From NCBI RefSeq assembly GCF_007752535.1, contig NZ_CP036426.1, forward strand, positions 124,001 to 188,000: a stretch of DNA of 64,000 bases, written 5' to 3'. The notes beneath the pieces were generated by a model that saw only the letters and a list, made by a program, of their open reading frames with translations, made no database searches and was not told the DNA's origin. The position numbers and the translations under genes are program-made. Of the stretch, positions 10,044-25,565 are shown piece after piece. The stretch comes from Tautonia plasticadhaerens (GTDB lineage Bacteria > Planctomycetota > Planctomycetia > Isosphaerales > Isosphaeraceae). Numbering within the stretch: the stretch's first letter is position 1; each line of letters starts with the position of its first letter.

Positions 10044-10369
10044 CCCCGGTCGGGAACCCCTCCCCCGCCAACCACTTCGGAGAGCCCGACGTCTCTCGCC
10101 GGCGTCCGCCCCCGATCCGCCCCGCCGGCCGGCTCCCGCCGCCCGTGATCGGCATCCTGGGGTGGTTGCGAAGCCTGTGCGAAATTGGCAGACTGTCCGG
10201 CTTGGATATCCGGCGCGGCAGGTTTTCGAAGCCCTTGAATCCTCGCATGGGTGATTGGTAGCTTCGTGTCCGGTCGGCGGCGAGGCCAGGGAACCGGGGC
10301 GGCGGATTCGCCCCGATCGGCGACGCCCCCGGCGTGCAAGGCGCCGGGGGCCACAGCGAGGATCCAGCG
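10044..10369. other. leader region of the giant repeat gene, with a 9-bp hairpin
   Basis: This is a 326-bp non-coding region that is slightly less GC-rich than its surroundings between 10160 and 10270. A weak plus-strand promoter candidate is TTGGCA at 10185-10190 and TATCCG at 10207-10212 (16-bp spacer). A perfect 9-bp inverted repeat (10326-10334 with 10342-10350, 7-nt loop) ends 19 bases before the start codon, in what should be the 5' untranslated leader. It could affect translation. No known riboswitch was recognised. Confidence 0.4.
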
Positions 10370-13300
10370 ATGAGCAGCAGACGAGGTCGCCGGGGTGCGG
10401 CGGGACGGGCTTCCCGGGGCGGCTTCCGGGTCGAGCGGCTGGAGCCGAGGCAGCTGCTGGCGACCTTCGACGTGACCTCGACGGCCGACTCCGGCGCGGG
10501 GACGCTCCGGGAGGCGATCACCCTGGCCAACCTGACGGCCGAGGCGGACACGATCCGCTTCGACCTCGGCGGCTCGGGCGTCCGGACGATCGCCGTCACC
10601 TCGGCCCTGCCGATCGTCACCGCGCCGCTGGTCATCGACGGCGCGACGCAGCCGGGCTTCAACCCCGCCTCGCCGACCCCGGTGGTCTTCCTCAACGGCG
10701 TCTCCACCGCCGGCATGGCCGACGGCCTGGCCTTCGCCCCGGGGGCGGCCGGCTCGGTGATCCGGGGCCTGGCGATCGGCCGGTTCGGCGGCGACGGCAT
10801 CGAGGTCCAGGCCTCCGACGTCCTGATCGTCGGCAACCACATCGGGGCCGACGCCGCCGGGACGGCCGCCGCCATGAACTTCGGGGCCGGCGTCCGGGTC
10901 GTTGGCGCCTCGGGGGTGTCGATCGGGGGGGCCACCGCGTCTCCGTTCAGCCCCGGGGCGGTCGGCAACGTGATCTCGGCGAACGTCGGCGACAACATCC
11001 GGCTCGAAGGCGCCTCCGGGGCCGTCGTGCTGGGCAACTTCCTCGGCACCGACCGCTCCGGCACGGTCGCCCTCCGGGATCCGGCCTCCGGGGGCCACGG
11101 GGTCCGGATCGTCGGCGGCTCGGGGCACGTCGTCGGCGGCCCGACGCCCGGCGAGGGGAACCTGATCTCGGGCAACGGCATCAACGGCGTCGAGGTCGAC
11201 GGCGGCTCCGGAGTCCTCGTCTCCGGCAATCGGATCGGCACCACGGCCGACGGCTTGGCCCTGCTCGGCAACGAGAACCAGGGGGTCCGGCTCCGCAACG
11301 GGGCGACCGGCAACACGGTCGGCGGACGGAACGCCTCGGCCTTCGCCCTCTCGGCCGGCAACCTGATCGCCGGTCACCGGGACGACGAGGTCCGGGTCGC
11401 GGACCCGGGCACCTCCGGGAACCTCGTCGTCGGCAACTTCCTCGGCGTCGACCGCACGGGCTCGGCCGGGCTGCCCAGCGGGGACTCGGGGGTCGAGCTG
11501 AACAACGCCCCGGGCAACACCGTCGGCGGCGCCGACCCGAGGCTCGGCAACGTGATCTCGGGCAACCGGGGGGACGGCATCCTCGTCATCGGCCCCGGGG
11601 CGTCGGGGAACCTCATCCAGGGCAACCGGATCGGCACCAACGCGGCCGGGACCGCGGCCATCTCCAACGTCACCGAGGACGGCATCGAGATCAACGGCGC
11701 CCCGGACACCACCGTCGGCGGGGCCGCCGCCGGGGTCGGCAACCTGATCTCGGGCAATGAGAACCAGGGCATCCGCCTCCGCAACGGCCCGACCGGGTCC
11801 CTGATCCAGGGCAACCTCATCGGCACCGACGCCGCCGGGACGGCCGCCATCCCCAACGGCGAGAACGGCATCCTGCTGGAGGGCGGGGCCTCGTCCGGGG
11901 CCTCGAACAACACGATCGGCGGCGTGAACGCCTCGGCCGGGGTCCTGTCGGCCGGCAACCTGATTTCGGGCAACGGCCGCAACGGCGTCCGGGTCGTCGG
12001 CGCCGGCAGCTCGGGCAACGTCGTGCTCGGCAATTTCCTGGGGACCGACCGCCTCGGCACCCTCGCCCTGGGCAACTCGATCCACGGCGTCCTGCTCGAC
12101 GGCGCCCCCGGCAACACGATCGGCGGGGCGAACATCGGGTTGCAGCCGTTCGCGCTGCGGGCCGGCAACCTCGCCTCGGGCAACGGCGGGGACGGCATCC
12201 GCCTGGCCCTGCTGCTCGACGGCCAGGGCCAGCCGGTCTCGGCCAGCTCGGACAACCTGGTGGTCGGCAACTACGCCGGGACGAACGCCTCCGGCTCGGG
12301 GGCGATCCCGAACCAGGGTGCGGGCGTCGCGGTGCTCGGCGACTCCGCCTCGGCAGGATCCCTCTCCGGCAACACGATCGGCGGGGCGAACGAGGCGGTG
12401 CCGGGGGCGACCCGGGGGAACCTGATCTCGGGCAACGCCCGGCTCGGCCTGCTGCTCCGGGGGGGGGCGGTCTCGGGGAACCTGGCCCTGGGGAACCGGA
12501 TCGGCACCAACGCGGCCGGCACCGTGGCCGTGCCCAACGGCCGGGCGCCGTCGACCGGCGGCCCGATCGACGCCGACCAGGGCATCGGCGTGCTGATCGA
12601 CGGCGGGGCCTCGGCGAACACGGTCGGGCAGGGGAACCTCGTCTCGGGGAACATCCACGCGGGGGTCGTGATCGACGGCAGCCCGTCGAACGCCGTCTCC
12701 GGCTCCCGGATCGGCACCAACCTCGCCGGGACCGGCCCGATCGGCAACGGCATCGGCAGCCCCTTGCCGAACGGCGCCACCGACCCGACCGAGCTGGACG
12801 GCAACGGCGTCCTGCTCCGGGACGGCGCGACCGGCAACACGATCGGCGGCACCAACGCCGACCCCTCGGTGCTCACCGGCGGCAACCTCGTCTCGGGGAA
12901 CCTCGGCGACGGCGTGGCCGTGCACGGCGCCGGGACGTCGGGGAACCTGATCGCCGGCAACCGGATCGGCACCGACCTGGCCGGGACGGCCGCGATCGGC
13001 AACGCGCTGGACGGCGTGGAGGTGGCCGGGGCCGGGTCGACCACGATCGGCGGCGTCTCGCCGGGCCTCCGCAACGTGATCTCGGGCAACGGCAGCGACG
13101 GGGTCGAGCTGGAGCGGGGGACCTCGGACGCCCTGGTCCTGGGCAACTTCATCGGCACCGATGCGTCGGGCTCGGCGGCGGTCGGCAACGGCTCCGACGG
13201 CGTCTCCGTCTTCGACGCCTCCGGCAACCTCGTGGCCGGCAACCTCGTCTCCGGCAACGGCCTGGACGGGGTCCGGATCCGGGACCTGCTGGCGACCCCC

Positions 13301-16300
13301 GGCATCCCGACCTCCGGCAACCGGGTGCTGGGCAACTTCATCGGCACCGACGCCTCGGGGACCGTCGCGCTGGGCAACGACGACGACGGCGTGCAGGTCG
13401 TCGCCTCGTCCGGCAACACGATCGGCGGCGTCGAACCGGCGGAGGCCAACCTCATCTCCGGCAACCGCAGCTACGGCGTGGTCGTCGGCGACGGCGACGG
13501 CACCACCTCGGGCAACCTCGTGCTCGGCAATCGGGTCGGCACCACCGCCTCGGGGGACTCGGCCCTGGGCAACGCCCAGGACGGCGTCCTGCTGGCCCGG
13601 GGGGCGACGCGCAACACGATCGGCGGGGTGAACGCGGGGCCCGGCACCCGGACGGCCGGCAACCTCGTCTCCGGCAACGGCGGGTCGGGGATCCGGGTGC
13701 TCGGCGACCAGTCCCGGGAGAACCTGCTGCTGGGCAACTTCATCGGCACCGACGCCGACGGGTCCTCGGCCGTCGGCAACGGGCTCGACGGCGTCCGGGT
13801 CGAGGGGAGGCCCTCGAACACGATCGGCGGCACCAACGCCGGGCCCGGGGTCCTCACGGCCGGCAACCTCGTCTCGGGGAACCTCGGGGTCGGGATCCGG
13901 CTGATCGGCGGCGGGGCCTCGGCGAACCTGGCCTTGGGGAACTTCATCGGCACCGACGCCTCGGGATCCGACGAGGTCGGCAACGCCGGGGACGGCATCC
14001 GGGTCGAGGCGGCCCCGGGCAACACGATCGGCGCCTCCAACGGGGCGACCGCCTCGCTGGTCGCCGGCAACCTCGTCTCCGGCAACCTCGGGTCCGGGAT
14101 CCGGCTCTCGGGCCCCGGCGCCTCGGGCACCTTCGTGCTCGGCAACTTCGTCGGCACCGACGCCCCGGGGGCCGCCGGCCTCGGCAACCAGGGCCCCGGG
14201 ATCGTCCTCGACCGGGCCTCGGCCAACACGATCGGCGCCGCCAACGGGGCCCCCGGGGCCCTGGTGGCGGGGAACCTCGTCTCGGGCAACGGCGGCGACG
14301 GCGTGATCGTGACCGGCGAGGGGGCCTCGGCGAACTGGATCCTCGGCAACTTCGTCGGCACGGACGCCGGGGGCTCCTCCCGCGTCGGCAACGCCGTGGC
14401 CGGGGTCCGGATCGCCGCCTCGGGCAACTCGGTCGGGGTGGCGGGGGTGGGCAACGTCCTCTCGGGCAACCTCGGCGACGGCCTGGCGATCTCCGCCCCG
14501 ATGACCTCGGCCCGGGCCAACCTCATCGGCACCGACGCGACCGGGACGGGCGGCCTCGGCAACGGCGGGGACGGCGTCCGGATCTCCTCGAGCATGATGA
14601 ACACGATCGGCGGCAACGCCGACGGCCTGCGCAACGTCATCTCCGGGAACGCCGGGGCCGGGGTCCGGGTCGCCGGGGCGGGCGCCTCGCTGAACATCGT
14701 CGCCGGCAACCGGATCGGCACCGACCGGGCCGGGACGATCGCCCTGGGGAACTCGGTCGGCGTGCTGGTCACCGGGGGATCCACCAACAACGCGATCGGC
14801 GACGGCAACGTCCTCTCGGGCAACCGCGGCGACGGCGTCCGGATCGAGGGGGCCGGCGGCGGCGGGACCGAGAACGCGGTGGCCGGCAACTTCATCGGCC
14901 TCGGCCCCGACGGCTCGACCCCGGTCGGCAACGGGGGGGACGGCGTCCGGGTCGTCGACGCGGCCCGCAACACGATCGGCAGCAACCTCGCATCGGCCAA
15001 CGGCGGCTTCGGCGTCGCGCTGGTCGGCCCCGGGGCGACGACGAATTTCGTCCAGTCGAACCGGGTCGGCACCGGGGACGCGGGCCTGCTCGGCCGGGGC
15101 AACGCCGCCGGGGGGATCCTCGTCGAGGACGCCCCCGGCAACCTCGTCGGCGGGCCGGTGGCGGCCGAGGGGAACATCGTCTCGGCGAACCTCGGCTCGG
15201 GGATCGAGATCCGGGGGCCGGGCGCCTCGGGGAACCTCGTCGCCGGCAACGTCATCGGCCTGGCCGCCACCGGGGCCGCCCCGCTGGGCAACTCGGGGGA
15301 CGGCATCGCCCTGCTCGACGGCGCCTCGGCCAACACGATCGGCGGCGAGGTGGCCGCGGCCGGCAACGTCGTCTCGGGCAACTCCCGGGACGGCGTGGTC
15401 CTGGCCGGGGGGGCGACCCGCAACGTCCTCTCCGGCAACCTCATCGGCACCGACGCCGCCGGGGGCCGGGCGCTCGGCAACGGCTCCTCCGGGGTCCGGA
15501 TCTCCGACGCCCCCGACAACACCCTCGGCGGCCGGGCGAACCTGATCTCCGGCAACGGTGCGTTCGGCGTCGCGGTCGCCGGGCCCGGGGCCTCGGGCAA
15601 CGTCGTCTCCGGGAACCTGATCGGCACCGACCTGGCCGGGTCGGCCCCCCTGGGCACCCAGCGGGTCGGCCTGGTGATCCTCGACGCCCCGGGCAACCGG
15701 GTCGTCGACGGCAACCTCGTCGCCGGGCACCTGGGGGACGGCCTCCAGCTCATCGGCCCCGGCGCCTCGGGGAACCTCGTCGAGGGGAACCTGATCGGCA
15801 CCGACGAGTCCGGCTCGGGCGGCCTGGGCAACGCCCGGGGCGTCTTCCTCGACGGCGCCCCCGGCAACACCCTCCGGGCCAACACCGTGGCCGGCAACCT
15901 CGGCGACGGCGTCGTGCTGCTCAACGGCGCCTCGGGCAACCTGCTGTCGGGGAACCTCGTCGGCCTGGCCGGCGAGGGCGGGGCGGTGACGAGGGGCAAC
16001 CTCAGCGGCGTCCTGATCGTCGGGGCCGACGGCAACACGCTCGACGCCAACGTCCTCTCGGGCAACCGGGGCTTCGGCGCCGCGTTGGCCGGCACCTCGG
16101 GCAACGTGCTCTCGGGCAACCTGATCGGCGTCGACCCCGGGGGCACCCGGGCCAGGCCCAACGCCCTGCACGGCGTGATGGTCTTCGCCGCCTCGGGCAA
16201 CACCCTCTCGGCCAACGTCGTCTCGGCCAACGGGCTCTACGGCGTCGAGCTGCGGGGGGGCTCGTCGGGCAACCTGCTGGCGGAGAACCTCGTCGGCACC

Positions 16301-18349
16301 GACCGGTCCGGCTCCTCCCCGCTCGGCAACGCCAGCGACGGCGTCCACCTCGACGGCGCCGGGGGCAACACCCTCTCGGCCAACGTCATCTCGGCGAACC
16401 TGCTGGACGGCGTGAAGCTGATCAACGACTCCCCCAACAACACCCTGGCCGGCAACCTGATCGGCACGGACCGCACCGGGTCCGCCCGGCTCGGGAACCA
16501 GGGCAGCGGCATCCTGATCGCCGGGGCCTCGAACAACCTGATGCGGGGGAACGTGACCTCGGGCAACCGGGGCTTCGGGGTCGGCATCGCCGGGGCCTCG
16601 GGCAACGTGGTGGCCGAGGGCCTGGTGGGCACCGACGCGGCCGGCACCGTCGGCCTGGGCAACGGCCTCTCGGGCATCCTGCTGCTCAACGCCTCGCGGA
16701 ACTCCGTGCTCGACTCCGTCGTCTCCGCCAACGGGGCGGGCGACATCCGGGGCAACGTCCGGATCGACGGCCCGGGGGCCACCGGCAACCAGGTCCTCGG
16801 CAGCCGGATCGGCACCGACCGCCCCGGCGCCCGGTCGCTCGACCCCAACCTCGGGGGTGTCCGCCAGCGAGACCCCGAGTTCCCGGCCGACGGCACCCCC
16901 TCCCCCGGCAACCGCACCACCTTCGACCCCCGCAACGACGGCGTCGTCATCGCCGGGGGGGCCTCGGCCAACTCGATCGGCGGCACGGGGGGCGGCCAGG
17001 GGAACCAGATCTCGGGCAACCGGATCGGCGTCTACGTCCGGGACCGGTCGGGCGGCAACGTCCTGGTCGGCAACCGGATCGGCACCAATCCCGACGGGAC
17101 GTCTCCCCTGCCCAACGGCGACGGCGTGATCGTCCTGAACTCCTCCGGCAACACGATCGGCGGCCTCGGCGCCTCCTCCCGGAACGTCATCTCGGGCAAC
17201 CTGGAGGCGGGCGTCCGCCTGACCAGCCTCGCCTTCGAGGGGCCCCGGGCCCCGGCCGCCGGCAACGTGGTGGCGGGGAATTACATCGGCACCAATGCCG
17301 CCGGGGACGCCGCCGTCCCCAACCGCCAGGGGGTCTTCGTCTACGGCGCCTCGAACAACCAGATCGGCCTCGGCTCGTTCGCCGACGCCGACGGCGGCGG
17401 CAACCTCCTCTCGGGCAACACCGAGGTCGGCGTCCAGATCCTCAACGCCGACACGATCAACGCCCAGACCGTCGCCACCGACGCCGGCCCGGCGATCGTC
17501 CCGTCGCCCTCGGCCGAGGGCGCGGTCACCTCGGGGAACGTCGTGGCCGGCAACCGGATCGGCTCGGACGCCTCCGGCACGGCCCGGGTGCCGAACTACC
17601 AGGGCGTCTTCCTCAGCGACGCCCCCGGCAACGCCGTCGTCGACAACCTGATCGGCGGCAACGTCCAGGTCGGGTTGAACCTCACCGCGTTCAACGCCGT
17701 GGGCAACTTCGTCGGCGGCAACCGGATCGGCCCCGACATCGCCGGCAACCTCGGGCCGCTGGCCAACGGCTTCGGCGACCCCAACGGCCTGGGCACCGGC
17801 ATCCTGCTCAACCAGGTCCTCGACGGCGCCAACACGATCGCCCCCACCAACGACCTGAGGGGCAACACCACCGCCCAGACCCGGACCCGGACCATCGCCT
17901 CCGGCCCGTTCGTCGAGGGGGTGATCCCGATCGTCGACCCGGCCACCGGAGTGCTGACCCGGGTCGACGTCCGGATCAACGGCTACCTCTCCCGGGACGC
18001 CTCCGTCACCCTGAACCCGGCCAACTACGCCATCGAGCCGATCGGGGGTTCCGGGCCGATCGCCCTGGCGTCGATCACCTATGATGAGGTGGCCCGGCTC
18101 GTCTCGATCACCCCCGCCTCCCCCCTGCCCGCCGGCTCCTCCTTCCGCCTGACCCTGGTCGGCCTGGCCCCCGGCGGCCTCCGGTCCCGGACCGGCCCCG
18201 GCGCCCCCCCGGCCTTCCTGGACGGCAACCTCGACTCCCGGGCCGGCGGCGACTTCGTCCAGGTCGTCAACGTGCCCGCCCGATCGGCCTCGGCGGCGAT
18301 GACCGCGAGGGCCGTCGACGCCCTGCTCGACCTCGGCGACCCGACCTGA
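10370..18349 (+). CDS. giant secreted beta-helix repeat protein with LEPR-type N-terminus
   Basis: This 2659-aa protein starts at ATG 10370. A basic N-terminus is followed by the planctomycete sorting motif LEPRQLLA (residues 24-31) and a CSLREAI-like segment (STADSGAGTLREAITLAN, about residues 37-54). The body, to about residue 2465, is made of about 36 imperfect repeats of about 70 residues. Each combines GNxIGTDxxGTxALGN, NTIGG and GNLISGN blocks, the Asn/Gly ladder pattern of right-handed parallel beta-helix (NosD/pectate-lyase-like) proteins. A C-terminal Ig/SwmB-like segment follows (SITPASPLPAGSSFRLTL). It is most likely a surface or secreted filament, adhesin or polysaccharide-binding protein. 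No catalytic site was recognised. A continuous antisense frame also covers this gene but is a by-product of its repetitive codon pattern. Confidence 0.93.
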   Translation: MSSRRGRRGAAGRASRGGFRVERLEPRQLLATFDVTSTADSGAGTLREAITLANLTAEADTIRFDLGGSGVRTIAVTSALPIVTAPLVIDGATQPGFNPASPTPVVFLNGVSTAGMADGLAFAPGAAGSVIRGLAIGRFGGDGIEVQASDVLIVGNHIGADAAGTAAAMNFGAGVRVVGASGVSIGGATASPFSPGAVGNVISANVGDNIRLEGASGAVVLGNFLGTDRSGTVALRDPASGGHGVRIVGGSGHVVGGPTPGEGNLISGNGINGVEVDGGSGVLVSGNRIGTTADGLALLGNENQGVRLRNGATGNTVGGRNASAFALSAGNLIAGHRDDEVRVADPGTSGNLVVGNFLGVDRTGSAGLPSGDSGVELNNAPGNTVGGADPRLGNVISGNRGDGILVIGPGASGNLIQGNRIGTNAAGTAAISNVTEDGIEINGAPDTTVGGAAAGVGNLISGNENQGIRLRNGPTGSLIQGNLIGTDAAGTAAIPNGENGILLEGGASSGASNNTIGGVNASAGVLSAGNLISGNGRNGVRVVGAGSSGNVVLGNFLGTDRLGTLALGNSIHGVLLDGAPGNTIGGANIGLQPFALRAGNLASGNGGDGIRLALLLDGQGQPVSASSDNLVVGNYAGTNASGSGAIPNQGAGVAVLGDSASAGSLSGNTIGGANEAVPGATRGNLISGNARLGLLLRGGAVSGNLALGNRIGTNAAGTVAVPNGRAPSTGGPIDADQGIGVLIDGGASANTVGQGNLVSGNIHAGVVIDGSPSNAVSGSRIGTNLAGTGPIGNGIGSPLPNGATDPTELDGNGVLLRDGATGNTIGGTNADPSVLTGGNLVSGNLGDGVAVHGAGTSGNLIAGNRIGTDLAGTAAIGNALDGVEVAGAGSTTIGGVSPGLRNVISGNGSDGVELERGTSDALVLGNFIGTDASGSAAVGNGSDGVSVFDASGNLVAGNLVSGNGLDGVRIRDLLATPGIPTSGNRVLGNFIGTDASGTVALGNDDDGVQVVASSGNTIGGVEPAEANLISGNRSYGVVVGDGDGTTSGNLVLGNRVGTTASGDSALGNAQDGVLLARGATRNTIGGVNAGPGTRTAGNLVSGNGGSGIRVLGDQSRENLLLGNFIGTDADGSSAVGNGLDGVRVEGRPSNTIGGTNAGPGVLTAGNLVSGNLGVGIRLIGGGASANLALGNFIGTDASGSDEVGNAGDGIRVEAAPGNTIGASNGATASLVAGNLVSGNLGSGIRLSGPGASGTFVLGNFVGTDAPGAAGLGNQGPGIVLDRASANTIGAANGAPGALVAGNLVSGNGGDGVIVTGEGASANWILGNFVGTDAGGSSRVGNAVAGVRIAASGNSVGVAGVGNVLSGNLGDGLAISAPMTSARANLIGTDATGTGGLGNGGDGVRISSSMMNTIGGNADGLRNVISGNAGAGVRVAGAGASLNIVAGNRIGTDRAGTIALGNSVGVLVTGGSTNNAIGDGNVLSGNRGDGVRIEGAGGGGTENAVAGNFIGLGPDGSTPVGNGGDGVRVVDAARNTIGSNLASANGGFGVALVGPGATTNFVQSNRVGTGDAGLLGRGNAAGGILVEDAPGNLVGGPVAAEGNIVSANLGSGIEIRGPGASGNLVAGNVIGLAATGAAPLGNSGDGIALLDGASANTIGGEVAAAGNVVSGNSRDGVVLAGGATRNVLSGNLIGTDAAGGRALGNGSSGVRISDAPDNTLGGRANLISGNGAFGVAVAGPGASGNVVSGNLIGTDLAGSAPLGTQRVGLVILDAPGNRVVDGNLVAGHLGDGLQLIGPGASGNLVEGNLIGTDESGSGGLGNARGVFLDGAPGNTLRANTVAGNLGDGVVLLNGASGNLLSGNLVGLAGEGGAVTRGNLSGVLIVGADGNTLDANVLSGNRGFGAALAGTSGNVLSGNLIGVDPGGTRARPNALHGVMVFAASGNTLSANVVSANGLYGVELRGGSSGNLLAENLVGTDRSGSSPLGNASDGVHLDGAGGNTLSANVISANLLDGVKLINDSPNNTLAGNLIGTDRTGSARLGNQGSGILIAGASNNLMRGNVTSGNRGFGVGIAGASGNVVAEGLVGTDAAGTVGLGNGLSGILLLNASRNSVLDSVVSANGAGDIRGNVRIDGPGATGNQVLGSRIGTDRPGARSLDPNLGGVRQRDPEFPADGTPSPGNRTTFDPRNDGVVIAGGASANSIGGTGGGQGNQISGNRIGVYVRDRSGGNVLVGNRIGTNPDGTSPLPNGDGVIVLNSSGNTIGGLGASSRNVISGNLEAGVRLTSLAFEGPRAPAAGNVVAGNYIGTNAAGDAAVPNRQGVFVYGASNNQIGLGSFADADGGGNLLSGNTEVGVQILNADTINAQTVATDAGPAIVPSPSAEGAVTSGNVVAGNRIGSDASGTARVPNYQGVFLSDAPGNAVVDNLIGGNVQVGLNLTAFNAVGNFVGGNRIGPDIAGNLGPLANGFGDPNGLGTGILLNQVLDGANTIAPTNDLRGNTTAQTRTRTIASGPFVEGVIPIVDPATGVLTRVDVRINGYLSRDASVTLNPANYAIEPIGGSGPIALASITYDEVARLVSITPASPLPAGSSFRLTLVGLAPGGLRSRTGPGAPPAFLDGNLDSRAGGDFVQVVNVPARSASAAMTARAVDALLDLGDPT
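10838..17767 (+). repeat. coding tandem repeat array, about 36 units of about 70-75 codons
   Basis: I counted 36 occurrences of the block [FLRVYH]-x-G-[TAVLS]-x-x-x-x-G-x-x-x-x-x-N, from HIGADAAGTAAAMN at the start to RIGPDIAGNLGPLAN at the end. Most units also contain NTIGG and GNL(I/V)SGN. Units are diverged rather than identical, and spacing varies because some carry insertions (for example around 12580 and 16860). This looks like old duplication and divergence rather than recent slippage. Confidence 0.85.
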
Positions 18350-22152: not shown

Positions 22153-22698
22153 ATGCTGCTGATGGCCGTCGAGCAGGACGACCGGATCATCTGGGTGGTC
22201 GTCGAGCAGCACCGGCCCAAGGGCCGTATTCGGAGCCGGATCGTCCTGCACCTCGGCCAGTACCGGGACCGCGACGCGGCCGAGGCCGCCTTCCTCGACC
22301 GGCTCGCGACCAATCCCACGCTCCGGGCCGTCGCCGGGCGCTGGGCCGCGAATGCGGCGGACGTGCTCTCGGACCGCAAGGCCCGGGCCCGGTTCCTCCT
22401 CCACGGCGTCACCTCCGGCGGGATCGCGGCCGACGCCGACGACCTCCTGCTCAGGAGGGAGGAGGAGGAGCGGCGCGCGCGGGAGCGGGCGAGGGCGGCA
22501 TCCTGGCCCGCCGGGATCCCGTCGGTCGCGTTCGCCACGCTCGGTCTCTCGACCGCCGCCTCGCTCGCCGAGATCAAGGCCTCCTACCGGAGGAAGGCCT
22601 TCCTCCTGCACCCCGACCGGGGCGGCGACCTCGCGGCGATGGTCGCGCTGAACGCCGCCTACGAGGACGCCTCCTGGTACGCCGAGTGGCGGGGCTGA
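22153..22698 (+). CDS. protein with C-terminal J domain
   Basis: This is a 181-aa cytoplasmic protein. Residues about 125-178 form a minimal J domain, FATLGLSTAASLAEIKASYRRKAFLLHPDRGGD, with the HPD tripeptide at 153-155, which would stimulate a DnaK-type Hsp70. The N-terminal 120 residues (MLLMAVEQDDRIIWVVVEQHR, then a charged RREEEERRARERARAA linker) are not recognised. The J domain at the C-terminus, without Gly/Phe or zinc regions, makes this a type III J protein, probably with a dedicated client. It sits alone between glgX and a convergent small gene. Confidence 0.85.
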   Translation: MLLMAVEQDDRIIWVVVEQHRPKGRIRSRIVLHLGQYRDRDAAEAAFLDRLATNPTLRAVAGRWAANAADVLSDRKARARFLLHGVTSGGIAADADDLLLRREEEERRARERARAASWPAGIPSVAFATLGLSTAASLAEIKASYRRKAFLLHPDRGGDLAAMVALNAAYEDASWYAEWRG

Positions 22699-23050: not shown

Positions 23051-23523
23051 CGGTCCTCGCCTCGCTGAACCGGCCCCCACGGCCGGCGTCTCTGGTCCCC
23101 CGTTTCCCTCCTCTAAATACGGGCCGTGACGGGAGTTGGTTCGATTTCGCGGGCAGCCTCAGGGGGCGATTTTCGGCCCCCGGGAGCGGTCACGCCGGCC
23201 TCGAAGTCGGCGGTACGAGGAGCGGGGCCCGGGTCCACGACGTTCGACCGCGAGACGCCCTGGACGGCGGCGGGTCGAGTGCCTTGCGGACGCGGCGACG
23301 CACCGCACCGCGGGCGGTGCGTCGCCGCGACGCCCCCCGCTCGACGGCCTCGGCGTTCGCGTCGAGGACGCGCCGCGCGAGTGCGAGTGTCGGCGGCGGC
23401 GGCGTCCTCACGACTCCACATGTGTCTCGGTCGCCGTCTCTCGAGGGAGTTCCCAGGGAAATCGGGGCCTCGTGTCGGCCCCCGGTGCGGAGACCCGGCG
23501 CGGGCCGGAAAGGAACGCGAACG
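23051..23523. other. divergent intergenic region with a strong palindrome
   Basis: This is a 473-bp non-coding region that should carry promoters for the small minus-strand gene and for the plus-strand OmpA/protease gene. Its only clear structure is the 16-bp inverted repeat at 23291-23329. An AAAGGA ribosome site lies just before ATG 23524. Nothing else was recognised. Confidence 0.4.
23291..23329. repeat. 16-bp perfect inverted repeat, 7-nt loop
   Basis: Bases 23291-23306 pair perfectly with 23314-23329 (core gcggcgacgcaccg and its complement). It lies about 195 bp upstream of the OmpA/protease start, in a divergent region, so it is not placed as a terminator for either flanking gene. It could be an operator or a leader attenuator. 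Role is inferred only from position. Confidence 0.6.
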
Positions 23524-24558
23524 ATGTCACGGGCCACGGGAGAGGGGAAGATTCGGCCGCTGGAGACGAGCCGCCAGGGATGCCCGACGGCGTTCCTGCT
23601 GTACAACTTCGACGTCGGCGGCTGCGGCCTGAAGACGCTGCACAAGGGCCTGCTCGATCGGCTCGTCAAGATCCTCGAGCGGAACCCGGAACACCGGATC
23701 CGCCTGGTCGGGCGTGCCAGCCGGTCCGGCTCGGACTCGGTGAACATGCAGTGGTCCAGGCGTCGCGTCGAGGCGGTCGCCCGGTACCTGAAAGAGGCCC
23801 GGGTGCCCGACGACCAGGTCCGGACCGAGTTCATCGGGGAGTCCGCCCCCCTGAGCGCGGACCTGGAGTCCGAGGAGGACCGCTCGGTCGAGCTGCACCT
23901 GCAGATCGCCCGGGTGCTCACCCTCGTCCTGGTGGACGCCCATCGGGTCCGCCCGACCTGGGCCATGGTGGAGCACATCCGGGAGGTGATCGCCCCCCTG
24001 GCGAACCGGGCGGGCCGGGAGCTGCGGATCGTCCAGCAGCGGATCCTGGAGCGGTCGGGGGAGCTGAGCATCACCTTCGAGCCCGGCGGGCGCGGGAAGA
24101 AACCGTGTGGTGGCCTCTCCATCCTGGGCGACGAGGCGGGCGAGTCCGTCTACGTGGGGGCCCACGAGGAATTGCGGGTCTGCGGCGAGTCCCAGGGCGA
24201 CCCCCGGGACCCCATGAACTGGGAAGACCCGCACGGCCCCCGGCACCTCGAGCACACCTCCCAGCTCGAGCACGTCTTCGAGAACGGCGAGCCCGAGTTC
24301 GCCCGGTTCGTCGCCAACACCGCGGTCCACGAGCTGGGCCACATCATGGCGAAGCTGGAACACACGGAGGATCGGACCAACTTCATGTTCGACCAGGGCG
24401 GCTCGGCCAACCTGCCCCGCGAGCTGCGCACCCGGGAGAGCATGCGCCGGTACTGGTCGAGCCGCCTGACGTTCAACTCCGACCAGGAGCGACGGCTCGT
24501 CTGCGCCATCCAGACCGGCAACTTCAGCGGCGGGCTCGAAATGGTCCGCAAGAAGTAG
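23524..24558 (+). CDS. OmpA-like domain fused to a zinc-metalloprotease-like domain
   Basis: This is a 344-aa protein with an unusual pairing. Residues about 20-140 resemble an OmpA C-terminal (peptidoglycan-associating) domain: NPEHRIRLVGRASRSGSDSVN, SRRRVEAVARYLKEARVP near residue 78, and the EDRSVELHL end strand. Residues about 160-344 contain a zinc-protease site, NTAVHELGHIMAKLEHTEDR, with His269, Glu270, His273 and a candidate third ligand His280, followed by NFMFDQGG, which could serve as a Met-turn. This resembles metzincins/archaemetzincins, but the third His is one position later than in HExxHxxGxxH. No signal peptide is seen from ATG 23524 (AAAGGA ribosome site), so export or an intracellular role is open. 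Its partners are unknown. Confidence 0.75.
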   Translation: MSRATGEGKIRPLETSRQGCPTAFLLYNFDVGGCGLKTLHKGLLDRLVKILERNPEHRIRLVGRASRSGSDSVNMQWSRRRVEAVARYLKEARVPDDQVRTEFIGESAPLSADLESEEDRSVELHLQIARVLTLVLVDAHRVRPTWAMVEHIREVIAPLANRAGRELRIVQQRILERSGELSITFEPGGRGKKPCGGLSILGDEAGESVYVGAHEELRVCGESQGDPRDPMNWEDPHGPRHLEHTSQLEHVFENGEPEFARFVANTAVHELGHIMAKLEHTEDRTNFMFDQGGSANLPRELRTRESMRRYWSSRLTFNSDQERRLVCAIQTGNFSGGLEMVRKK

Positions 24559-24754: not shown

Positions 24755-25291
24755 TTACTTCTTCCGCACGAGCTTCATGCAGCCGCACATCTCCTCGGCG
24801 GGGCCGCCGTTCTCCCAGGCGACGCCGTCCACCTGGATGTGGTCCTCGTCGATGATCGTGAGGGTGGCCTCGTGCATGTGCGTGTCCTTCGACGGGTCCA
24901 GGTTGCCCCCGCCGTCGAACCGGAAGCGGATCTGGCCGGTCGAGGAGTCCCCGTCGGCCCTCAGCCTCGGCTGGTTGCCCAGCATGCAGTAGTGGGTCAT
25001 GACGAGGTCGGGCCCGTCGACCGTGTAGATCGAGATCATCTCCATCGGCTGTCCGGGGAAGCTCGTCTCGTGCACCGCGCTGCCCCCCGCGGTCACCTTG
25101 ATGATCGAGGCGACCTGGTCGGTGGGGTTGCCGTCGGCGTCCGTCGTCAGCCAGGTGCCTTCCAGCGCCTTCATCGCCTCCAGGGCCGGATTCGTGGGCG
25201 CCGGCGGCGGCTGGACGGCGGTGTCGTCGCCGAAGGCGGAAAGCCGGAGGGCAAGCACCAGCGCCGGGATGACCACCAGTCGTCGCGTCAT
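24755..25291 (-). CDS. secreted lipocalin-like hypothetical protein
   Basis: This is a 178-aa protein with a signal peptide (MTRRLVVIPALVLALRLSAFG) from ATG 25291. The mature part begins ALEAMKALEGTWLTTDADG, a start typical of DUF1579/lipocalin-like secreted proteins, and contains MTHYCMLGNQPRL and a late CGCMKLVRKK segment. The pattern suggests a beta-barrel that binds a small molecule, but no ligand or reaction is known. The longer open frame upstream of 25291 is not protein-like. Divergent from the DUF3465 gene. Confidence 0.75.
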   Translation of the reverse strand: MTRRLVVIPALVLALRLSAFGDDTAVQPPPAPTNPALEAMKALEGTWLTTDADGNPTDQVASIIKVTAGGSAVHETSFPGQPMEMISIYTVDGPDLVMTHYCMLGNQPRLRADGDSSTGQIRFRFDGGGNLDPSKDTHMHEATLTIIDEDHIQVDGVAWENGGPAEEMCGCMKLVRKK

Positions 25292-25565
25292 TTTCGATTC
25301 TCCTGACGGAGAGGATCCGGGTTCGGGTCGAATTCGACCCCCATTCTCACGCCACCCGATGATCGATCGGGGACGGGCCCGATCGACACCGGGGGGGAAA
25401 TTTCGTCGGAGATTCTTTCCCGCCCGGGAGGCCTCGCCGCGGCATCCGCCCCAGGAAGCGTCTCGCCGAGACCGAGTGTCGGCGTCCCCGGTTCTCGGCC
25501 CGGTGGCCTTCGGGTGGCCTAGGTTTTCCTGGATGGCACCTTCGGATCGAGGCGGCACGATCCCC

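Follow-up and report, generated by a model that had tools for sequence, protein, structure and literature searches.

A candidate metzincin-like zinc peptidase fused to a signal-less OmpA-like domain in Tautonia plasticadhaerens

The gene and its surroundings

The window analysed in this study is a 64,000-nucleotide stretch of Tautonia plasticadhaerens DNA; it lies in contig C1, and the whole genome measures 9.4 Mb. The open reading frame of 344 residues that an earlier sequence-only reading had singled out was confirmed as described, and its features are collected in Table 1. Using a codon table built from three neighbouring genes, this frame scored +0.50 bits per codon, whereas the other five frames scored between -0.26 and -2.42; since it alone matches the codon pattern of the neighbours, and with a GC3 of 0.945, the gene is judged to be real. 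Nothing in its codon pattern points to recent acquisition. The ATG at 23524 is considered the best start because the in-frame extension upstream of it, beginning at the first possible start (TTG 23284), scored -0.99 and is thus non-coding-like, and because a probable ribosome-binding site lies just ahead of the ATG.

Table 1. Features of the OmpA-like/zinc-peptidase-like gene, in window coordinates
Feature	Position	Strand	Basis
Gene of the OmpA-like/zinc-peptidase-like protein, 344 aa	23524..24558	+	Open reading frame, GC3, frame coding score
Probable ribosome-binding site AAAGGA, nine bases ahead of ATG 23524	23509..23514	+	Sequence; assignment inferred
OmpA-like domain, residues 29-117; Ser66 at the diaminopimelate-Asp position, Arg81 retained	23608..23874	+	PF00691, PDB OmpA chains, predicted fold
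C-terminal zinc-peptidase-like domain, about residues 130-344	23911..24555	+	Alignment over nearly the whole length with the stand-alone Gemmatirosa protein
Putative active-site motif H269-E270-x2-H273-x6-H280-x2-D283-x2-N286-x-M288	24328..24387	+	Sequence; conserved in the Gemmatirosa relative

No export signal was visible from any in-frame ATG, GTG or TTG when the ATG form and the upstream frame were scanned for hydropathy in 17-residue windows, which is a crude search compared with a signal-peptide program. The five most hydrophobic windows of the extended frame all lay at residues 121-142 (mean at most 1.52) and none was N-terminal. The earlier statement that the best-supported start yields no signal peptide therefore agrees with the scan, which shows no hydrophobic N-terminus, and the upstream in-frame start that had been proposed as a check supplied neither a signal nor coding-like sequence.

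The gene, on the plus strand, stands by itself. Its neighbour on one side is a DnaJ-domain gene (22153-22695) and on the other a minus-strand gene (24755-25351) that Pfam does not match; beyond these, Pfam matches identify an alpha-amylase/isoamylase-type enzyme and a prolyl oligopeptidase, and nothing nearby hints at a pathway. The DnaJ-like neighbour is present in relatives. At the six loci compared, two of which are truncated by the end of a contig, no match was found for the protease or for five other neighbour genes, and no clean empty site can be demonstrated because the neighbour genes are likewise unmatched there. Elsewhere in the window, a repetitive frame of 2671 aa on the plus strand (10334-18349), with many GNxIGT/NLISGN repeats, is overlapped by a longer minus-strand frame of 3071 aa.

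The zinc-peptidase-like half and its relatives

The C-terminal half contains HELGHIMAKLEH and NFMF, which together supply H269, E270, H273, H280, D283, N286 and M288. H280 follows H273 by seven residues, compared to six in metzincins, so the third candidate ligand does lie one residue later than in HExxHxxGxxH, as had been noted. With respect to the other features of the metzincin clan, HExxH with its glutamate (H269, E270, H273) is present both here and in the one clear relative described below, the glycine is replaced by Ala276 and the late histidine recurs in that relative, and a methionine with a putative turn role (M288) follows the third histidine. The distance from H280 to M288, eight residues, equals that in the archaemetzincin consensus HEXXHXXGXXHCX4CXM as given in the portion of PMC3427221 consulted; T281 and N286 stand at the first two cysteine positions of that family.

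None of the models in the family libraries searched, including Pfam and NCBIfam, matched the protease half above its cut-off. Outside the OmpA-like half, Pfam and NCBIfam gave weak matches to three models, all of metalloproteases and all lying on the motif (residues 256-290): Peptidase_M10 of Pfam (E 0.16; 12.3 bits, below the cut-off of 24), and from NCBIfam an archaemetzincin model (E 0.085; 12.8 bits, below the cut-off of 145) and an MXAN_2677/2678 metalloprotease model (E 0.19). The earlier description of an OmpA-like half joined to a probable metzincin-like half in one signal-less protein of 344 residues is upheld, none of the libraries searched holding a model for the latter half. A two-member profile (A1) compared with the PDB gave a Fic-domain chain (3cuc, E 0.51) and MMP-16 (E 1.2), neither significant, and 3cuc also appeared at a non-significant E of 0.53 when the single protein was used; the MMP-16 alignment has a gap of one residue between histidines two and three.

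Structure prediction added little for this half. The full-length AlphaFold2 model reached a mean pLDDT of 45.8 and was fair in the OmpA-like half only, and a second model, for which two M10-like viral proteins were added as alignment rows, was worse (mean pLDDT 37.2). The C-terminal half of the first model, at low confidence, runs from a helix through four strands to a long helix carrying HExxH, and the strands are absent in the second; this order would fit a zincin, at a confidence too low to count.

The sole clear relative of the protease half is encoded on plasmid 2 of Gemmatirosa kalamazoonensis (NZ_CP007130.1, 190913-191491; tblastn E 6e-12, BLASTP 31% identity over 209 columns). That protein starts about where the OmpA-like half ends, has no OmpA domain and stands alone, and no obvious export signal was seen in it by eye. 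It retains the H, E, H, H, D, N and M of the motif with the same spacing, one residue longer than usual; homologues lacking HExxH had been named beforehand as evidence that would count against the peptidase reading, and this one clear relative keeps it. In 200,000 shuffles of the Tautonia protein, HExxH arose in 4.7%, HExxH-x6-H in 0.14% and HExxH-x5/6-H-x7-M in 0.0075%, and conservation in so distant a relative is stronger evidence for the motif than these frequencies. Such conservation also bears on the idea that this half is not a metzincin at all, its fold being unrelated and its HExxH-like string a chance occurrence. The lack of any family match above cut-off, the two AlphaFold2 models, neither usable in this half, and a top PDB profile match to an unrelated Fic-domain chain at non-significant E all speak for that idea; however, between the two distant members the motif is clearly better conserved than the rest (11 of 20 positions identical over H269-M288 vs. 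55 of 164 in the remaining aligned columns), and we regard an accidental string as highly improbable.

The late third histidine did not prove to be a peculiarity of the protein: it is shared by the Gemmatirosa relative, so that the longer spacing is a family trait, and by two M10-like proteins from viral contigs. These two emerged when viral contigs were searched with the pattern HExGH-x6-H-x2-D-x2-N-x-M (L013:2956-3516 and L014:993-1631); against the Peptidase_M10 cut-off of 24, L014 scored 25.5 bits (above) and L013 20.1 bits (below). L014 aligns weakly with MMP-1 in the PDB (E 0.13-0.16), with a gap of one residue placed two residues ahead of the third histidine. Because both resemble Peptidase_M10, the longer spacing seems to be tolerated in matrixin-like proteins, and the late histidine seems to be a variant and not a defect, the likeness of the Tautonia protein to these two being at the level of the motif.

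The protease half is narrowly distributed. Among 45 genomes of the family and order, three others of which belong to the same genus, it was found in the source genome only, and the same result was obtained with the two-member profile over the order (1 of 45). A search of 392 genomes of the phylum, a set that overlaps with the 45, likewise returned the source alone. Four short weak matches in the phylum were rejected because they cover query residues 11-109 and stop short of the HExxH at 137-141, and a weak match in a further genome (G011) was rejected as covering residues 23-112 only. The class of two genomes, G221 and G299, contained the protease half in none of 29 genomes. No relative was found in viral contigs with the C-terminal half, the two-member profile or a three-row profile (A3), none was found in phages, and among plasmids only the Gemmatirosa protein was recovered, which as a query matched only itself. 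Genome contigs scanned with the two-member profile gave 591 stretches, none confirmed. The three-row scan gave 232, of which the only one confirmed, L016, was set aside as a 666-residue HELGH protein lacking a third histidine at the required spacing, which we take by eye to be M3-like. These contig scans cover only sequences with the chosen peptide patterns, and more members may exist. The occurrence of the two members in different phyla, Planctomycetota and Gemmatimonadota, would fit horizontal spread.

The OmpA-like half and signal-less OmpA domains

The OmpA-C-like nature of the N-terminal half, also proposed previously, was established by a match to PF00691 over residues 29-117 well above the curated Pfam cut-off (E 8.9e-12; 45.7 bits vs. 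27.2). OmpA-family PDB chains were matched by sequence (best E 1.6e-7), and the predicted model of this half matched OmpA-type domains by fold (best E 6.3e-8), model confidence there being only fair. A reading as the Zorya defence protein ZorB was rejected, the resemblance being of the general OmpA/MotB type (E 0.0035).

The ligand-contacting positions were mapped by alignment together with the motifs HTDxxG and LSxxRA, which we assumed for this purpose. By this alignment-dependent mapping, the position of the diaminopimelate-binding aspartate is Ser66, the arginine of the pair is retained as Arg81, and Asn74 is also retained; in Acinetobacter baumannii OmpA the pair is Asp271 and Arg286, according to the part of PMC5974059 consulted. 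The Asp and Arg pair of peptidoglycan-binding domains is therefore incomplete here (Ser66, Arg81), and the 17-residue hydropathy scan showed no export signal, lipobox or membrane helix of the sort that peptidoglycan-binding proteins carry. Because of Ser66 and the lack of a visible export signal, the earlier suggestion that the protein is localised to the wall found no support. With Arg81 retained, the OmpA-like half may nevertheless bind wall or amino acids to some degree.

A search for PF00691 in the family's 45 genomes gave 55 rows in 38 genomes, and every row was examined. In 52 of these 55, a 17-residue segment with a mean hydropathy of at least 1.36 precedes the domain, and the OmpA domain is C-terminal. 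The remaining three lack a hydrophobic N-terminal stretch (mean hydropathy 0.07, 0.06 and 0.94) and are the 344-residue protein, a protein of 168 residues from the same genome (L002/L017) and a protein from genus g2 (L009). All three carry serine at the diaminopimelate-Asp position. Serine alone is also seen outside this trio (8 of 55 rows in all, vs. 33 of 55 with aspartate), but the combination of serine, asparagine and arginine at the three marked columns occurs in these three rows only. The distance from domain start to protein end is 316 residues in the 344-residue protein and 308 in L009, compared to 94-127 in the other 53 rows. A protease anchored to the wall or resident in the periplasm, exported by an unusual route with its OmpA-like half on peptidoglycan, would agree with the OmpA fold and with the retention of Arg81 and Asn74; the absence of a visible export signal from every in-frame start, the change of aspartate to serine in all three signal-less members, and the hydrophobic segment and C-terminal OmpA domain of the other 52 rows argue against it and make it very unlikely.

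The protein from genus g2 (G001, L009:1477-2511) begins at an ATG with AAGGAGG just upstream. Its C-terminal half is unlike the protease half, has no Pfam match and shows weak PDB matches only (best E 0.02); by eye this half looks beta-rich, and the weak match at E 0.02 is to gp138 of phage phi92. As a query, this protein matched nothing in plasmids or phages. The 168-residue protein (L002:1492-1998, minus strand) is a stand-alone signal-less OmpA-like protein, and near it a minus-strand frame ends in what looks by eye like a resolvase-like tail. Among the 55 rows, 38 have glutamine at the diaminopimelate-Arg position. In many OmpA proteins of the family, for example L047:1421-2674 (minus strand), a membrane segment at the N-terminus is followed by about 240 residues and then by a C-terminal OmpA domain with glutamine at that position; by eye, these resemble MlaD/MCE proteins.

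In the wider phylum, a profile for the OmpA-like half (A5) matched 60 of 392 genomes at 1e-6 with 66 rows, two of them from the source genome. Inspection by eye of 29 of the 64 further rows (L096-L124) showed that all 29 retain the aspartate and 27 have a hydrophobic N-terminus; of the other two, L124 runs off the available sequence, and L117 (158 aa), with no hydrophobic N-terminus and the aspartate retained, may be a further signal-less case. The same profile gave no match in viral contigs. The full protein matched 4 of 198 genomes of the class, namely the source, G001 (L009) and two with other OmpA proteins (L010, L011), whose match is confined to the OmpA-like half. Plasmid records matched the OmpA-like half in 35 cases and the 168-residue protein in 135, the rows listed being mostly OmpA-type or unannotated; the rarity of signal-less OmpA domains stated here applies to this phylum.

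A proposed intracellular role and comparison with known systems

Combined, the two halves are best explained by a soluble, cytoplasmic metzincin-like zinc peptidase with a repurposed OmpA-like recognition domain, an explanation to which we give about an even chance. H269, H273 and H280 would coordinate the zinc, E270 would activate the attacking water and M288 would form the Met-turn; the protein would stay soluble in the cytoplasm as a zinc endopeptidase. Its OmpA-like half would act in recognition or assembly, bringing the catalytic half together with a partner or substrate, and would not tether the protein to the wall. We infer the binding of zinc, the catalysis, the location in the cytoplasm and the role of the OmpA-like half. 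The protein's place of action is probably the cell interior and not the wall, because no export signal is visible and the wall-contact aspartate is changed, although an unrecognised export route would overturn the cytoplasmic location. The previous proposal of a new protease type, acting either at the wall or in the cytoplasm, is thereby narrowed: action inside the cell is favoured, wall localisation is not supported, and the family libraries searched hold no model for the protease half.

There is precedent for a metzincin relative working inside a bacterium: in Myxococcus, the archaemetzincin CarG has no proteolytic activity and belongs to a transcriptional regulator, as described in the portion of PMC3427221 consulted. 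By analogy, the zincin half could be a zinc-stabilised scaffold that binds partners in a non-enzymatic regulator, and its narrow distribution (1 of the 45 genomes searched for the family and order) and unusual spacing would suit such a role. However, Glu270 and all three histidines are retained in both members, whereas CarG, in the same portion of that source, has glutamine in place of the glutamate; a regulator without catalysis is accordingly rated unlikely.

Extracellular contractile injection systems (eCIS) were considered because their (PVC) toxins can contain both an OmpA and a metallopeptidase domain, according to the extract of PMC3482391 consulted. The protein could be a delivered effector that leaves the cell by an injection or lysis route and whose OmpA-like half binds the wall of a target cell, and the N-terminal domain of the same kind on a different C-terminal half in L009 is in keeping with such an effector. 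The eCIS_core and Phage_sheath_1 models gave no match at E 0.001 in the source genome and likewise none in G001, although both match in another genome of the family (G014), so that such searches do work in this family. Additionally, the domain order is reversed relative to the eCIS toxins and the motif is unlike their HExxHxxQ-E, as far as that extract describes them, and the three nearby genes with Pfam matches encode DnaJ-domain, amylase-type and prolyl-oligopeptidase proteins. On these grounds, eCIS being the delivery route that was searched for, export as a delivered effector is considered distinctly unlikely. As a separate observation, an eCIS core domain and, some 5 kb away, a sheath protein lie on the same contig of G014 (L070 and L075, G014:C503), and this genome probably carries an eCIS.

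An OmpA-like domain is generally taken as a sign of association with the cell wall. The small signal-less group with a changed ligand aspartate suggests that the OmpA fold may do another job inside the cell. A broader proposal, which we hold tentatively and with more doubt than confidence, is that certain bacteria of this family use the OmpA fold as an interchangeable cytoplasmic N-terminal module for recognition, occurring alone, with a new peptidase or, in a second genus, with an unrelated beta-rich partner, and that the peptidase belongs to a new metzincin-like HExGH-x6-H family found also on a Gemmatimonadota plasmid. If it is metzincin-like, the peptidase half widens the accepted signature by one residue and a missing glycine, and searches based on HExxHxxGxxH would miss such peptidases because of the extra residue and the absent glycine. 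No fusion of OmpA with an archaemetzincin or metzincin was found in the open-licence literature searched, as judged by titles and abstract openings.

Compared with known systems, the protease half shares with metzincins (M10 and archaemetzincins) its HELGH, a third histidine, an aspartate three residues further on and a methionine eight residues past the third histidine; in matrixins an aspartate stands three residues after the third histidine, as is visible in the MMP-16 alignment. It differs from them in the extra residue before the third histidine, in alanine for glycine and in scores below every cut-off, and from archaemetzincins in the absence of both of the first two cysteines. The OmpA-like half resembles the OmpA C-terminal-like domains of Pal, YiaD, PdsO and PorE in sequence and predicted fold, but it is N-terminal, signal-less, has serine for aspartate and is fused to a protease-like half; OmpA effector domains typically have a membrane segment ahead of them, in the part of PMC7159879 consulted. 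As in eCIS (PVC) toxins, a metallopeptidase-type and an OmpA-type domain share one polypeptide, but in the toxins with PVC-metallopeptidase and Tox-OmpA domains that the extract of PMC3482391 covers, the OmpA domain invariably comes last, at the very C-terminus; in the Tautonia protein it is N-terminal, the zinc motif is not HExxHxxQ-E, and the source genome has no eCIS match. The Gemmatirosa protein matches the whole protease half and its motif spacing but has no OmpA domain.
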